Origin: Gammaproteobacteria bacterium
GTDB lineage: Bacteria > Pseudomonadota > Gammaproteobacteria > UBA6429 > Thiohalophilaceae
Length of the DNA stretch: 43,145 bases
Assembly (NCBI GenBank): GCA_030617815.1
Contig: JAUWUS010000010.1
Span: 1 to 43,145, forward strand
Direction: 5' to 3'
Shown here: in pieces, positions 12,885-16,936 of the stretch
How the letters are laid out: the number at the start of each line of letters is the position of its first letter
Numbering within the stretch: the stretch's first letter is position 1
Position numbers and translations under genes: made by a program
Notes under the pieces: generated by a model
Seen by the model: only the letters and a program-made list of their open reading frames with translations
The model's database searches: none
What the model was told of the DNA's origin: nothing

Positions 12885-13193
12885 ATGTCAGAGTCTGCTC
12901 ATAAGATGGATCAGCGATGCGCTAAACGGATTGCCATCGGAGAAAAAGTCGATTTTCGTTGCAACAGCGATGAAGATTTTCGTGCCGCAATAATGGTGGA
13001 CTTCAGTGAGTCGGGCATGTTGCTTATGATGGGCGAAGAACACACCGAGGGAACCCAATTTGAAGTTCGGGTTAAAGAAGATGAAGCCATCTACTTTACC
13101 GTTAAATGCATGCGCATCGCTTCTTGCCCTGATGTTGATTCATTTAGCTATGGATGCCAAATTGAAGACCACCGTTTAGAAAGCAGTAAATAA
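12885..13193 (+). CDS. Single-domain PilZ protein (c-di-GMP receptor)
   Basis: 102 residues, one PilZ domain. The RxxxR motif (RCAKR, residues 11-15) and the DxSxxG motif (DFSESG) are both intact, so c-di-GMP binding is expected. The rest is a small beta barrel. Such stand-alone PilZ proteins act as adaptors that relay second-messenger levels to motility, secretion or enzymes. No effector gene is adjacent; the GGDEF-EAL protein at 29.7 kb is one possible source of the signal. AAGG lies upstream of the ATG. Confidence 0.85.
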   Translation: MSESAHKMDQRCAKRIAIGEKVDFRCNSDEDFRAAIMVDFSESGMLLMMGEEHTEGTQFEVRVKEDEAIYFTVKCMRIASCPDVDSFSYGCQIEDHRLESSK

Positions 13194-13710
13194 GTCTGGA
13201 TCAATGTGACACAAAGCCGATCAGTCTTTTATGACTGTTATATTGGCATAATCATTATTTAATAACCTTCAGATACTTACTGAAACTCAGCAGCAGCAAC
13301 CTTCCAACAAAAAACACTCTTCTTACCCGTCAAAAGCACTCTATTGAATCTGTAATACGCTGTATTTCAGCAAAAACAGACGTATATTGTCGACAATAAA
13401 GTATGTAAATAATTGAAATTTAAATGTATTTTGCACCATTTTTATGCATTTTTGTTGCAATGTGACAATTTAATGAAACTTTAGCTATTTTTACATTCAA
13501 ATATTCGATTAATCACATCAAATAAATAGATGCATCTAAAAGAATCATAAACTTAGAAGGTTTATTAAAATTTAATAATATTCTCAACTTATTATTAAGG
13601 TTATTTATTTACATATAAACTTTCTGCATACTAATTCCGCTTTATTAATAATTAAAAAAACGATAAATAAAGTTAACCCCCACGATGATATGTAACCAGA
13701 GGAGAGCACT
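13194..13710. other. 517-bp AT-rich intergenic region upstream of the copper oxidase genes
   Basis: No coding potential was found. It contains a small hairpin after the PilZ stop (CAGTC/GACTG around 13222-13237) and a perfect 14-bp palindrome at 13385-13398. The long leader before the oxidase pair suggests that regulatory signals lie here, but I cannot assign a specific promoter. Confidence 0.6.
13385..13398. promoter_or_regulatory. 14-bp perfect palindrome, possible operator
   Basis: TATTGTCGACAATA is its own reverse complement, about 310 bp upstream of the multicopper oxidase start. A dimeric regulator could bind it; which one is unknown. The distance from the gene and lack of a second copy keep confidence low. 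Confidence 0.3.
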
Positions 13711-14712
13711 GTGGATAGAAGAAATTTCTTGAAATTCAGCAGTGCAGGGATCGCAAGCGCATTACTTGGAAGTACGGGCCTGTTAAGTTGGGCACCGCGT
13801 GCAGAAGCAGCAACCATTTCTAAAACTTTTTATATTACCGAAGGCTTTATCACTCAACCTGATGGCGTTGATGTTTATTTCCGTGGATTTAGCCCAAGTA
13901 CCAATAACCTTACCGTTCCCGGCGCACAAATGATTGTGCAAGAAGGCGATACTGTTCGGATAACCATCGTCAATACGTTAGGCACAAGTCACAGCTTTAA
14001 AATTGATGGTGTAGTGGATAGTGGTCGTATTTATGGCGGGCAAACTAGAACCATAGAATTCCAGGTCAATAAAGCCGGTACCTATATGTACTACGATGCA
14101 CGCAACGCACCTTATAATCGTTTAGTCGGTTTACACGGTGGTTTTGCGGTTATGCCAAAAGGCAGTAGTGATGAAGTTTATGCGGGTAGCCCAAACTTCG
14201 TGCAACAATACTTCTGGTTGTTTCATGATATTGATCCAGTTTGGCATAACTCCATTCGTAATCGCCGTACGCCAGGCACAACTTACAGCCCACGTTATTT
14301 CACCATTAATGGTTTAAGTGGCCGCCCTCCGGGCTCAGCCGGTAGCGGTGATCCTGCCATTGATGCCATGCACGATCCTCTTTCCGCATTGCATGGTCAC
14401 ATTGGTGATCGTACTTTATTGCGCGTATTGAATGCTGGCCAGTGTCAGCAATCTGTTCACACGCATGGCAACCACATGGATTGGCTCACCGATAATGGCC
14501 AAATTCGTGACGAAATATGGTCAAAAGATTGTATATACCTCGAAGGCAACATGGGTAAATTTGACGCCATCTTCCCGTTTGCTCCTCCACCTGATGCACA
14601 TCCACCTGTTACAACAGGCGTATATCCAATGCATCTACACACAGAAATGTCACAAACAGCAGGCGGTGGTCTGTACATGTTTGGCTCACTCACTGACATT
14701 TTCTTTGAATAA
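13711..14712 (+). CDS. Multicopper oxidase-like protein, half A (Tat-exported; motifs I and II)
   Basis: 333 residues from a GTG start with a strong ribosome-binding site (AGAGGAGAG). The N-terminus is a Tat signal (DRRNFLKFSS, twin Arg, hydrophobic stretch, cleavage near AEA-A). The first cupredoxin domain (about 35-150) has no type-1 copper ligands: the usual HCH region reads YYDARNAPYNRL. The second domain (about 160-333) keeps HTH at 250-252 (HTHGNH) and HLH at 308-310 (YPMHLHTEM), matching copper motifs I and II of a trinuclear site, but no type-1 Cys. It is followed 15 bp later by half B, which has motifs III and IV. Periplasmic function as a heteromeric oxidase is inferred; the substrate is unknown. 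Confidence 0.8.
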   Translation: MDRRNFLKFSSAGIASALLGSTGLLSWAPRAEAATISKTFYITEGFITQPDGVDVYFRGFSPSTNNLTVPGAQMIVQEGDTVRITIVNTLGTSHSFKIDGVVDSGRIYGGQTRTIEFQVNKAGTYMYYDARNAPYNRLVGLHGGFAVMPKGSSDEVYAGSPNFVQQYFWLFHDIDPVWHNSIRNRRTPGTTYSPRYFTINGLSGRPPGSAGSGDPAIDAMHDPLSALHGHIGDRTLLRVLNAGQCQQSVHTHGNHMDWLTDNGQIRDEIWSKDCIYLEGNMGKFDAIFPFAPPPDAHPPVTTGVYPMHLHTEMSQTAGGGLYMFGSLTDIFFE

Positions 14713-14727
14713 GAAAGGGGAACAATT

Positions 14728-15771
14728 ATGGGAATGAGAAGAAGAACGACCACAGATGGCGGTGGAATGGACGGCGGTGGTGGAGGCGGCGGCATGGGTG
14801 GTATGGGCGGCAGTTGCTACATTTACCCTGCTACACCTGCAACGCCCGGTTTAACCAATGCCGATGTCACTTTTAACTTAGGCATTGATATGCAAATCCC
14901 CCTCACCATGGACGATGGTAATACCATCAACATGTGGGGCTTCACCGATAACGGTGGCAACATGGGCATGGATGGCGGCGGCATGGGCGGCGGCGGCACT
15001 TTCCCCTCACCGGCAATGCGTGTTACCCAAGGCGATATTATTCACACCAATCTCAATGTCGGCATGATGTGGGTACACACCATTCATCATCACGGCATCG
15101 AACCCGAATATCGCAGTGACGGTGTTGGCCATTTATCGCATGATGTCGCAAACGGCACTTATACCTATCAATGGCGACCCGCACATGCCGGTACCTATTT
15201 TTATCACTGCCATACCAACACCGTATTACACGCCGAAATGGGCATGTACGGCGCGCTGATTGTTGATCCACCCGAAGGCCCAGGTACATTATTTTCGGGC
15301 GGCCCAAGATATGATGTCGAAGCTTTTTGGGTGGTGGATGAAATTGATTCTTCATGGCACACGCTACCTTGGGATGCAGGCACCTGCGGCGGTGATGTGG
15401 GTTTAAATGAACTCAATCCGGATTACTTTGTGATCACCGGTGTTGATGGCAGTGGTGATTCAGCAATGAACACCCCGCCGATATCTGCAACCGTACAACG
15501 CGGCCAAAAATTATTAGCCCGTTATATTTGTGCAGGTTATCACCCACAAAAAATTCGCTTTGGTGGTTTAACCGGAAAGATCTATGCATCCGATGGTCGA
15601 CCATTACCGAAGCCTGTAAGCGTCACAGAAATTCGCGCCTGCTCTGCTGAACGTTATGACATTATCTTTGAACCGACAGAACGCGGAACCTATTTAATTG
15701 AAACTGATATTATCCATTGGGTAACAGGCGACGTACTTGGCACAACACGTACCAGCATAACGGTCGTATAA
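14728..15771 (+). CDS. Multicopper oxidase-like protein, half B (motifs III and IV, type-1 site, no signal peptide)
   Basis: 347 residues, preceded by AAGGGG. The N-terminus is Gly/Met-rich (residues about 11-29) with no signal peptide; a second Gly/Met patch lies near residues 73-92. The first cupredoxin domain holds HTIHHH (His117, His120, His122; HxxHxH, motif III) and HCH at 160-162 with His168 and Met173 (motif IV and type-1 ligands). The H-C-H to His spacing is five residues, longer than the classic three. The second domain (about 190-347) has a cupredoxin look without copper motifs. Half A supplies the missing HxH motifs and the export signal, so the two probably form one complex and may be co-exported. 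Confidence 0.8.
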   Translation: MGMRRRTTTDGGGMDGGGGGGGMGGMGGSCYIYPATPATPGLTNADVTFNLGIDMQIPLTMDDGNTINMWGFTDNGGNMGMDGGGMGGGGTFPSPAMRVTQGDIIHTNLNVGMMWVHTIHHHGIEPEYRSDGVGHLSHDVANGTYTYQWRPAHAGTYFYHCHTNTVLHAEMGMYGALIVDPPEGPGTLFSGGPRYDVEAFWVVDEIDSSWHTLPWDAGTCGGDVGLNELNPDYFVITGVDGSGDSAMNTPPISATVQRGQKLLARYICAGYHPQKIRFGGLTGKIYASDGRPLPKPVSVTEIRACSAERYDIIFEPTERGTYLIETDIIHWVTGDVLGTTRTSITVV

Positions 15772-15816
15772 GAAATATAATAATAACTATAAATAGCGTA
15801 TTTATGCGCAGTATGA

Positions 15817-15853
15817 GGGGGAGAAAAGAAGAAATTCTTTCCCCCTTTTTTTT
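15817..15853 (+). terminator. Rho-independent terminator after the copper oxidase pair
   Basis: GGGGG (15817-15821) and AAAGAA (15825-15830) pair with TTCTTT (15835-15840) and CCCCC (15841-15845), with a GAAA tetraloop, a 3-nt bulge and eight T residues after. It lies between the convergent oxidase and MBL genes. Confidence 0.8.
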
Positions 15854-15862
15854 GCTTAAAAT

Positions 15863-16792
15863 TTATTCCCACTCAATCTCGGTATAAACCTTTAATGCAT
15901 TACGTCCTTTTAAAGATTCATAATTCTTTAAATACTTAAACCTTGTTTGGTTAATTCGACTAATGTCATGTGCACCGCCACCACTTTCAATAAATAACAA
16001 AATGGTATTACGTAAAAACGATAAATAATTTCCGGTATCTTTAATGGCTTTATCTAATGTTGTTGGCGAACCATGCCCGGGGACAAGATGTTTTGGTTTA
16101 AACCCGGCCACACTATTAAATACATGTAGCCAGCTTTTAGAATTAGATTGTTCACCTATACCTAACATTCGTTCGGTATACACAATATCACCGGTAAACA
16201 TAACTTTACTTTGTGGCAACCAAATAAAACTATCACCCGGAGTATGTGCCTGGCCACGAAAATAAATTTCAAATTTCACTCCGCCTAAAGTAAATTTATA
16301 ATTATTTTTAAAAGTGATATCTGCAAATTTTTCTTTCGTCCCTTTAATGCCATCCGCACCGATTAATGTTTCTGACATTGTCCACTGCATACTCAGACGA
16401 GTCTGATGATCTTTTTTGGCAGCCTCACTGGTAATTATTTTCGCTCCCAATGACGCAAAATAATCATTACCAAACCAGCGGTGATCCTGACCACCACTGT
16501 TAATAACATACCTTATCGGTTTATTAGTCACGTTTTTGATTATTTTATGAAGTGCCTTTGCGCCTTTTAGGCTTCCACCAGAATCAATTAGAACAACCCC
16601 TTCATTTGTTACAACAAAACCAAAGGTGGCATTATTTCCCAGATTTTCTTTTGTTCTATTATTTAATGGGCCAACAATAGACCAAACATTTTTTGTGACC
16701 TTTTTAAGCGACAATTTTTGTTCTGTCGCGGCCCACGCGGAAACCTGCAACAAACAAAAAAGCATCATAAATAAACTAACTTTTTTCAACAT
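15863..16792 (-). CDS. Exported metallo-beta-lactamase-fold protein with altered metal site
   Basis: 309 residues from ATG 16792 (GAGAT upstream); the frame is open 12 codons further, but this start gives a clean signal peptide (cleavage near AWA-A). The MBL fold is visible: GVVLIDSGGS, GQAHTPGDSF, VMFTGDIVY and PGHGSPT. The usual HxHxDH motif reads SGGQDH (residues 99-104): two of the three first-site His are replaced by Ser and Gly, while Asp103, His104 and later ligands remain. It is similar in layout to SoxH-like or quinoprotein-linked zinc hydrolases. It may bind a single metal or have a different activity. It converges on the oxidase pair; a functional link is unproven. Confidence 0.8.
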   Translation of the reverse strand: MLKKVSLFMMLFCLLQVSAWAATEQKLSLKKVTKNVWSIVGPLNNRTKENLGNNATFGFVVTNEGVVLIDSGGSLKGAKALHKIIKNVTNKPIRYVINSGGQDHRWFGNDYFASLGAKIITSEAAKKDHQTRLSMQWTMSETLIGADGIKGTKEKFADITFKNNYKFTLGGVKFEIYFRGQAHTPGDSFIWLPQSKVMFTGDIVYTERMLGIGEQSNSKSWLHVFNSVAGFKPKHLVPGHGSPTTLDKAIKDTGNYLSFLRNTILLFIESGGGAHDISRINQTRFKYLKNYESLKGRNALKVYTEIEWE

Positions 16793-16936
16793 ATTAAATA
16801 TCTCGCAATTAACTATAAACCACATCACTTACAAAACATTAGATGATTTTTAGCTATATTGCCCGCTTTTAGTTAAATCAGTTTAAAAAAATTGCAATAT
16901 GAAAATCATGCAATGATAAAAAATACACAAAATGTA

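Follow-up and report, generated by a model that had tools for sequence, protein, structure and literature searches.

To our knowledge, in every known class of multicopper oxidase (MCO) the catalytic unit is a monomer or a homo-oligomer encoded by a single gene. Two adjacent genes, here called A and B, in a 43,145-nucleotide contig of a member of the Gammaproteobacteria (JAUWUS010000010.1; the whole stretch is referred to below as the window) raise the question whether one oxidase can be made from two different proteins, each holding part of the copper ligands. A sequence-only reading of this locus had described an MCO split into two genes and forming a heteromeric four-domain enzyme with the metal cluster at the subunit interface. 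From the comparisons and models described below we infer both a complex and an activity: A and B are very likely two obligate subunits of a periplasmic heteromeric MCO with a shared copper site.

The gene pair and the division of its copper ligands

Both open reading frames have the coordinates given in the sequence-only reading, and the positions it listed for the copper motifs are exact. The parts of the pair are the following (positions in the window).

13711..14712, + strand: gene A, two-domain MCO subunit with the domain-2 half-site only (333 aa, GTG start)
13711..13812, + strand: Tat signal peptide of A (DRRNFLKF...AEA)
13813..14169 (approximate boundary), + strand: A domain 1, cupredoxin without copper ligands; PF07732 match, with the ligand columns of 3g5w replaced
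14170..14709 (approximate boundary), + strand: A domain 2, bearing four trinuclear-site His; aligned to 3g5w domain 2
14458..14466, + strand: HTH (A 250-252), trinuclear-site ligands; aligned to HAIHTHGH of 3g5w
14632..14640, + strand: HLH (A 308-310), trinuclear-site ligands; aligned to IHDHVD of 3g5w
14713..14727, + strand: A-B intergenic stretch of 15 nt, with ribosome-binding site AAAGGGG ahead of B
14728..15771, + strand: gene B, two-domain MCO subunit holding the type 1 copper ligands and one half of the trinuclear site (347 aa, ATG start)
14728..14814, + strand: N-terminal tail of B, Gly/Met-rich (MGMRRRTTTDGGGMDGGGGGGGMGGMGG) and of low hydrophobicity; a low-confidence segment in the A+B model
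15076..15093, + strand: HTIHHH (B 117-122), with H117 for type 1 copper and H120 and H122 for the trinuclear site
15205..15213, + strand: HCH (B 160-162), with H160 and H162 for the trinuclear site and C161 for type 1 copper
15229..15246, + strand: B H168 and M173, type 1 copper ligands
15277..15768 (approximate boundary), + strand: B domain 2, cupredoxin without copper ligands; HxHG and HDH of 3g5w replaced (QKIRFGG, IETDII)
15815..15853, + strand: terminator-like hairpin followed by T8, closing the two-gene unit (-16.7 kcal/mol; z -1.64, which is modest)

The GTG at 13711 was left as the start of A because a stop codon lies upstream of it and AGGAGAG occupies 13700-13706. The Tat signal proposed for A is matched by PF10518 (TAT_signal, E 2.4e-4) and by TIGR01409 above its cut-off, and Pfam Cu-oxidase_3 matches both chains (A 8.8e-10, B 2e-13). 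No RNA family was found in the window, and a scan of the window for promoters and terminators returned no excess of sites. A small PilZ-domain protein (12885-13193) is encoded upstream of A, and nothing tied it to the two-gene unit. Convergent with B is a metallo-beta-lactamase-fold protein with a signal-like N-terminus (15863-16828, minus strand), which is also close to A-B in a few near relatives. Synteny around the pair is conserved among close relatives only, and it pointed to no functional partner besides A and B.

Type C two-domain MCOs are trimers in which the trinuclear site lies between neighbouring like protomers (PMC13151041). For comparison we used the blue copper oxidase of Nitrosomonas europaea (3g5w), a metagenomic laccase (2zwn) and the one-gene relatives L118-L126. 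The A profile matches both domains of 3g5w (7.7e-27, residues 3-284), and the A+B profile matches both domains across B (1.4e-27). The B fold superposes on 3g5w at 2.2 A (Z 25.1), and the A fold of a relative, taken from a low-confidence model, does so with Z 22.5. In these alignments A His 250, 252, 308 and 310 map onto HAIHTHG and IHDHVD of 3g5w domain 2, and the HTIHWHG and HCH positions of domain 1 are replaced in A. B keeps the domain-1 HTIHHHG, HCH, H168 and M173. Together the retained His of A and B cover all eight trinuclear positions of 3g5w, and what each chain has lost is kept in its partner.

The pair resembles type C oxidases in having two cupredoxin domains per chain, with HxxHxHG, HCH, HxHG and HxH at the same places. 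Type 1 copper in the N-terminal domain is true of the pair (through B) and not of each chain. In type C oxidases, however, all ligands are encoded by one gene, whereas here each paralogue has a half-site and each chain is incomplete alone. Since no A or B chain has both half-sites, the pair is classed as a derived variant of type C and not as a plain member. By alignment, A-B would work like a type C two-domain MCO, but without the family feature of both half-sites in every chain.

Conservation among relatives follows this division. Among the 13 His of A, invariance across about 45 relatives is limited to five (250, 252, 255, 308 and 310); H250 and H252 are present in 45/45 and H308 and H310 in 44/45, the exception being the disrupted gene L023. 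Seven of the 14 His of B (117, 120, 122, 160, 162, 168 and 211) are invariant, each in 44/44 or 45/45, as are Cys161 (46/46) and Met173 (47/47). Type 1 ligands in the N-terminal domain are thus a feature of B (H117, C161, H168 and M173 all invariant) and not of A. Conservation of the motifs in A and B is far above chance. Two further invariant residues, A His255 (14473-14475) and B His211 (15358-15360), lie outside the expected copper ligands.

The copper-free cupredoxin domain that had been proposed in each half was confirmed as A domain 1 and B domain 2. A complete half-site in these domains was found in none of 22 A and none of 21 B chains, and the trinuclear His pairs are likewise absent. 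No chain carries both trinuclear halves (0/22 A, 0/21 B), compared with 9/9 of the one-gene relatives. The sequence-only reading had named relatives with a complete B as a refuting condition, and none of the 21 B chains is complete on its own. The claim that neither half is complete and that the cluster would lie at the subunit interface is therefore backed by the complementary ligand sets over 41 pairs, by the 3g5w positions and by the A+B model. The word "split", taken as history, did not survive. Each chain is a complete two-domain protein and the erasures are opposite, so A and B appear to be duplicated subunits (paralogues) with complementary half-site losses rather than one broken gene. 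The motifs had also been likened to motifs I and II (A) and III and IV (B); the ligands are real, but A corresponds to domain 2 and B to domain 1 of a type C oxidase, and not literally to those motifs of three-domain laccases.

Three-domain MCOs (CopA/CueO/laccase) were tried as a family assignment and rejected. For TIGR01480, B scores 77 bits where the cut-off is 479, and the scores for NF008205 and TIGR03389 are far under the cut-offs. Neither A nor B reached the cut-off of any curated NCBIfam oxidase or nitrite reductase model; for the copper nitrite reductase model TIGR02376 (cut-off 296.3 bits) A scores 32.3 and B 31.2.

Copper nitrite reductases contain just one type 2 copper, held by three His. 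These weak TIGR02376 scores and the presence of nitrite reductases among the nearest folds would be expected if A and B were two-domain enzymes of that kind, not oxidases. That identity is very unlikely, as both chains fall far under the cut-off, all eight oxidase trinuclear His are retained between them, and the best profile and fold match of the subunits is the oxidase 3g5w. Copper-free proteins of the MCO fold also exist, for example factor V (PMC3600357), and two of the four domains of A-B are copper-free. It is nevertheless exceedingly improbable that A-B is a catalytically retired complex with a binding or structural role, in the way that coagulation factor V relates to ceruloplasmin, since the full ligand set is maintained at one interface with hardly any loss.

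Pairing across genomes and export

Pairs were gathered from whole genomes and a contig collection. Within the Gammaproteobacteria there are 41 distinct adjacent A-B pairs, in the order A then B in 41/41, and the lone A or lone B genes among the checked hits lie at contig ends. The A and B trees covary (r 0.87 for all pairs and 0.72 for the core set), and 0/2000 permutations gave a value as high. B relatives at E <= 1e-25 occur in 23 of 369 genomes of the class. No strong B (1e-40) besides the window's own was found in 398 sampled genomes of the phylum Pseudomonadota, which indicates a sporadic distribution of the pair. In the source genome (93% complete) no Cu-oxidase_3 protein other than A and B was found. 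Outside the Gammaproteobacteria, pairs are present in Alphaproteobacteria and Actinomycetota. Indioceanicola profundi has pairs on two plasmids, on one of which A is annotated "hypothetical protein"; the A subunit DOL89_RS25210 carries this annotation. Tandem arrangements may bear on stoichiometry: one genome has A-B-A-B (L044), and another has two tandem B genes with A on a different contig (L067/L116).

In the window A and B lie in the same reading frame, and a single TAA separates them. This is what would be seen if they were one gene in life, either a fused four-domain protein made by read-through or a single gene divided by a sequencing error or a recent nonsense mutation. Across the pairs, however, a shared frame occurs in 14 of 41, as chance would give (one-third); the stop codon and the spacing differ from pair to pair, and most B genes have a ribosome-binding site and a start of their own. 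The sequence-only reading had proposed a search for pairs and single-chain fusions; against the 41 pairs, an intact single-chain A+B was found in 0/369 class genomes. The chance-level frame sharing and the separate start and ribosome sites of B make a one-gene origin of either kind extremely unlikely, and we continue to treat A and B as two genes.

Some plasmid loci depart from the regular pair. An Arthrobacter sp. FW305-BF8 plasmid has an A-B pair that is apparently frame-disrupted (L129/L130, 19963-22310): the A frame continues into the beginning of a B-like domain, with the rest of B in another frame. This locus resembles a frameshifted fusion, hinting at a fused ancestor, and no intact A-B fusion was found in the plasmid collection. 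It is adjoined by an Nramp transporter and a metal-dependent regulator. On Paenarthrobacter aurescens pTC1 (L131/L134), an A-like "Tat domain protein" lies near mntH and a broken B remnant about 7 kb away. Retention of A with a mere remnant of B on this plasmid is a counterpoint to obligate pairing.

The signal peptides of A and B are also divided. In the window the B frame opens at the stop codon of A, so no signal peptide is possible on B, and the tail (MGMRRRTTTDGGGMDGGGGGGGMGG) lacks hydrophobic character. Where A bears a Tat signal, its partner B almost always has no signal peptide. Peak 12-residue hydropathy is <=1.2 in nearly all B of such pairs, versus 2.4-2.7 in B with a Sec signal. 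In the L024/L028/L117 group A has a Sec-type or lipoprotein-type signal and B a Sec-type signal. Exceptions are L021 and one B of genome G036, which seem to bear a Tat-lipoprotein signal of their own. With a Tat signal on A and none on B, the folded pair is probably exported together through Tat, with B as the passenger. The Tat/no-signal pattern probably goes back to one evolutionary change and is counted as a single observation.

Complexes in which one protein hitchhikes on the Tat signal of another include Ni-Fe hydrogenases and molybdoenzymes. A-B is like these in having a twin-arginine signal on one partner (A) and none on the other (B). It differs in being a multicopper oxidase whose co-export is predicted from sequence. 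One hitchhiker example is the periplasmic enzyme complex of Rodrigue et al. (1999), as cited in PMC4148689. We found no description of a Tat hitchhiker MCO in the literature searched.

Structure models and one-, two- and three-gene relatives

Because A and B lie in one frame, they can be folded as a single read-through chain. The window was translated with the TAA as a residue, and an alignment of 54 rows from related loci was used. The AF2 model of this A+B chain, a prediction the sequence-only reading had called for, is confident (pTM 0.87, pLDDT 84.7) and has a disordered linker. It overlays residues 2-697 (domains 1-4) of human ceruloplasmin over 503 residues at 4.1 A (Z 23.8), and its top Foldseek ranks are a factor V relative, MnxG and ceruloplasmin. 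A repeat with the L065 pair and 21 rows was poor (pLDDT 61.6, pTM 0.64) and did not reproduce the docking; its listed matches were mainly to the A half, with 3g5w first, and ceruloplasmin was not among the matches listed. The sole confident model of the complex is that of the read-through-linked chain, and A-B docking is to be read as predicted.

Failure of the docking with the shallower alignment is compatible with separate roles for the two proteins, in which B would carry electrons as a type 1 blue-copper protein (perhaps homotrimeric), A would be a copper-binding protein or chaperone, and the linkage would be regulatory only. Each chain is a complete two-domain unit able to trimerise alone, and B keeps a full type 1 site. 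Such roles would leave H120, H122, H160 and H162 needless in a mere electron carrier; yet across 41 pairs B retains these trinuclear His and A has just the four that B lacks, and the strict pairing and covarying trees also speak against independence. We regard separate roles as unlikely and retain the heteromeric oxidase as the preferred reading.

Bacterial and algal six-domain MCOs have a single trinuclear site at the interface of domains 2 and 3 (PMC3600357). Ceruloplasmin (4enz), bacterial MnxG (9bxa) and algal Fox1 served as the comparison set. Reading A then B, the pair is like the bacterial and algal enzymes in having one trinuclear site between domains "2" and "3". It is unlike six-domain MCOs in consisting of separate polypeptides (two genes, two domains each) with four domains instead of six. 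Type 1 copper is in domain "3" of A-B, compared with domain 2 of the bacterial six-domain enzymes and domains 2, 4 and 6 of ceruloplasmin. In the model, the contact of A domain 2 with B domain 1 would be the equivalent of the six-domain 2/3 interface, and through pseudo-threefold symmetry it can be inferred to correspond to the 6/1 interface of ceruloplasmin.

A class profile search and the fetched loci revealed loci of three kinds: single genes that hold every ligand (L118-L126), A-B pairs, and trios. The trios (L071, L107-L115) always run B, A, C; in two of them C is truncated or absent at the end of the contig. A B-A-C operon is also present on the Cupriavidus metallidurans CH34 megaplasmid (L132, 1339010-1349900). 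In the trios B has the type 1 and domain-1 sets, A has the domain-2 set (mostly HPFHxHG, plus HSH), and C has neither. C often lies within very large open reading frames of 800 to 2,800 aa (835 to 2,790 aa in the operons listed here), and these large proteins are perhaps surface-exposed. A search for C gave matches in 10 of 369 class genomes, at a threshold that also picks up a few A/B relatives. Like the A-B pair, the B-A-C operons divide the ligands between an A-like and a B-like subunit; unlike the pair, they have the order B-A-C, Sec-type signals on the inspected subunits, and a copper-free third subunit.

These trios and the ceruloplasmin overlay bear on the four-domain heteromer of the sequence-only reading. 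Its heteromeric part is supported, whereas "four-domain" is doubtful: both the trios and the modelled overlay point to a ring of six domains, in which a further subunit, perhaps another copy of A or B, would take the third place. The source genome, 93% complete, yielded no C subunit. Four domains would not close a ring of six, and with no third subunit found the stoichiometry may be A2B or AB2 in a closed ring, or AB in an open one.

In an unrooted tree of 80 chains, the six kinds of chain form six clades, with pair and trio subunits in separate clades. A-like chains (pair A, trio A and trio C) are separated from B-like and one-gene chains with support 96. A single clade of pair A and pair B was not rejected (p 0.29), a result compatible both with one shared duplication for pairs and trios and with separate ones.

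In the usual scheme for six-domain oxidases, a symmetric two-domain assembly lost all trinuclear sites but one (PMC3600357). The one-, two- and three-gene relatives appear from their sequences to be a series leading from homotrimeric two-domain towards six-domain oxidases. We give an even chance to a more specific proposal, that A-B and B-A-C are surviving unfused intermediates between homotrimeric two-domain oxidases, whose active site is repeated, and six-domain enzymes such as ceruloplasmin and MnxG, in which one site is left and the others have decayed. They would form asymmetric heteromeric rings in which duplication has confined the active site to one A-B interface, and in the lineage of the window the pair would be exported preassembled through Tat.

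Proposed mechanism and significance

In the proposed mechanism the folded A-B pair would cross the membrane via Tat, B being carried by A. A domain 2, with its four His, would dock on B domain 1, which has four His and the type 1 set Cys161, His117, His168 and Met173. Electrons from the substrate would enter the type 1 copper of B and pass along Cys161-His160/162 to a trinuclear cluster held by B 120, 122, 160 and 162 and A 250, 252, 308 and 310, where O2 would be reduced to water. The remaining two domains (A domain 1 and B domain 2), having lost copper, may act as structural fillers. Ligands were assigned from the 3g5w alignment and established MCO chemistry.

Our guess at the substrate is a metal ion, Cu(I) or Mn(II). 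Copper is suggested by the Met/Gly-rich tail of B, and manganese by the location of the Arthrobacter and Paenarthrobacter A genes near Nramp/mntH transporters.

No description of a heteromeric MCO was found in the literature searched, where coverage of subscription journals and preprints is thin, and one may exist elsewhere. The finding also carries a warning for annotation, as A may be called "hypothetical protein" and half of an oxidase thereby overlooked. If B does ride on A through Tat, co-export would be extended to a copper enzyme whose site spans both partners. The one-, two- and three-gene series would provide living systems in which six-domain symmetry breaking can be tested without gene fusion. 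If the reading is true, an obligate heteromer whose ligands are parted between two paralogues would add a new architecture to the multicopper oxidases.
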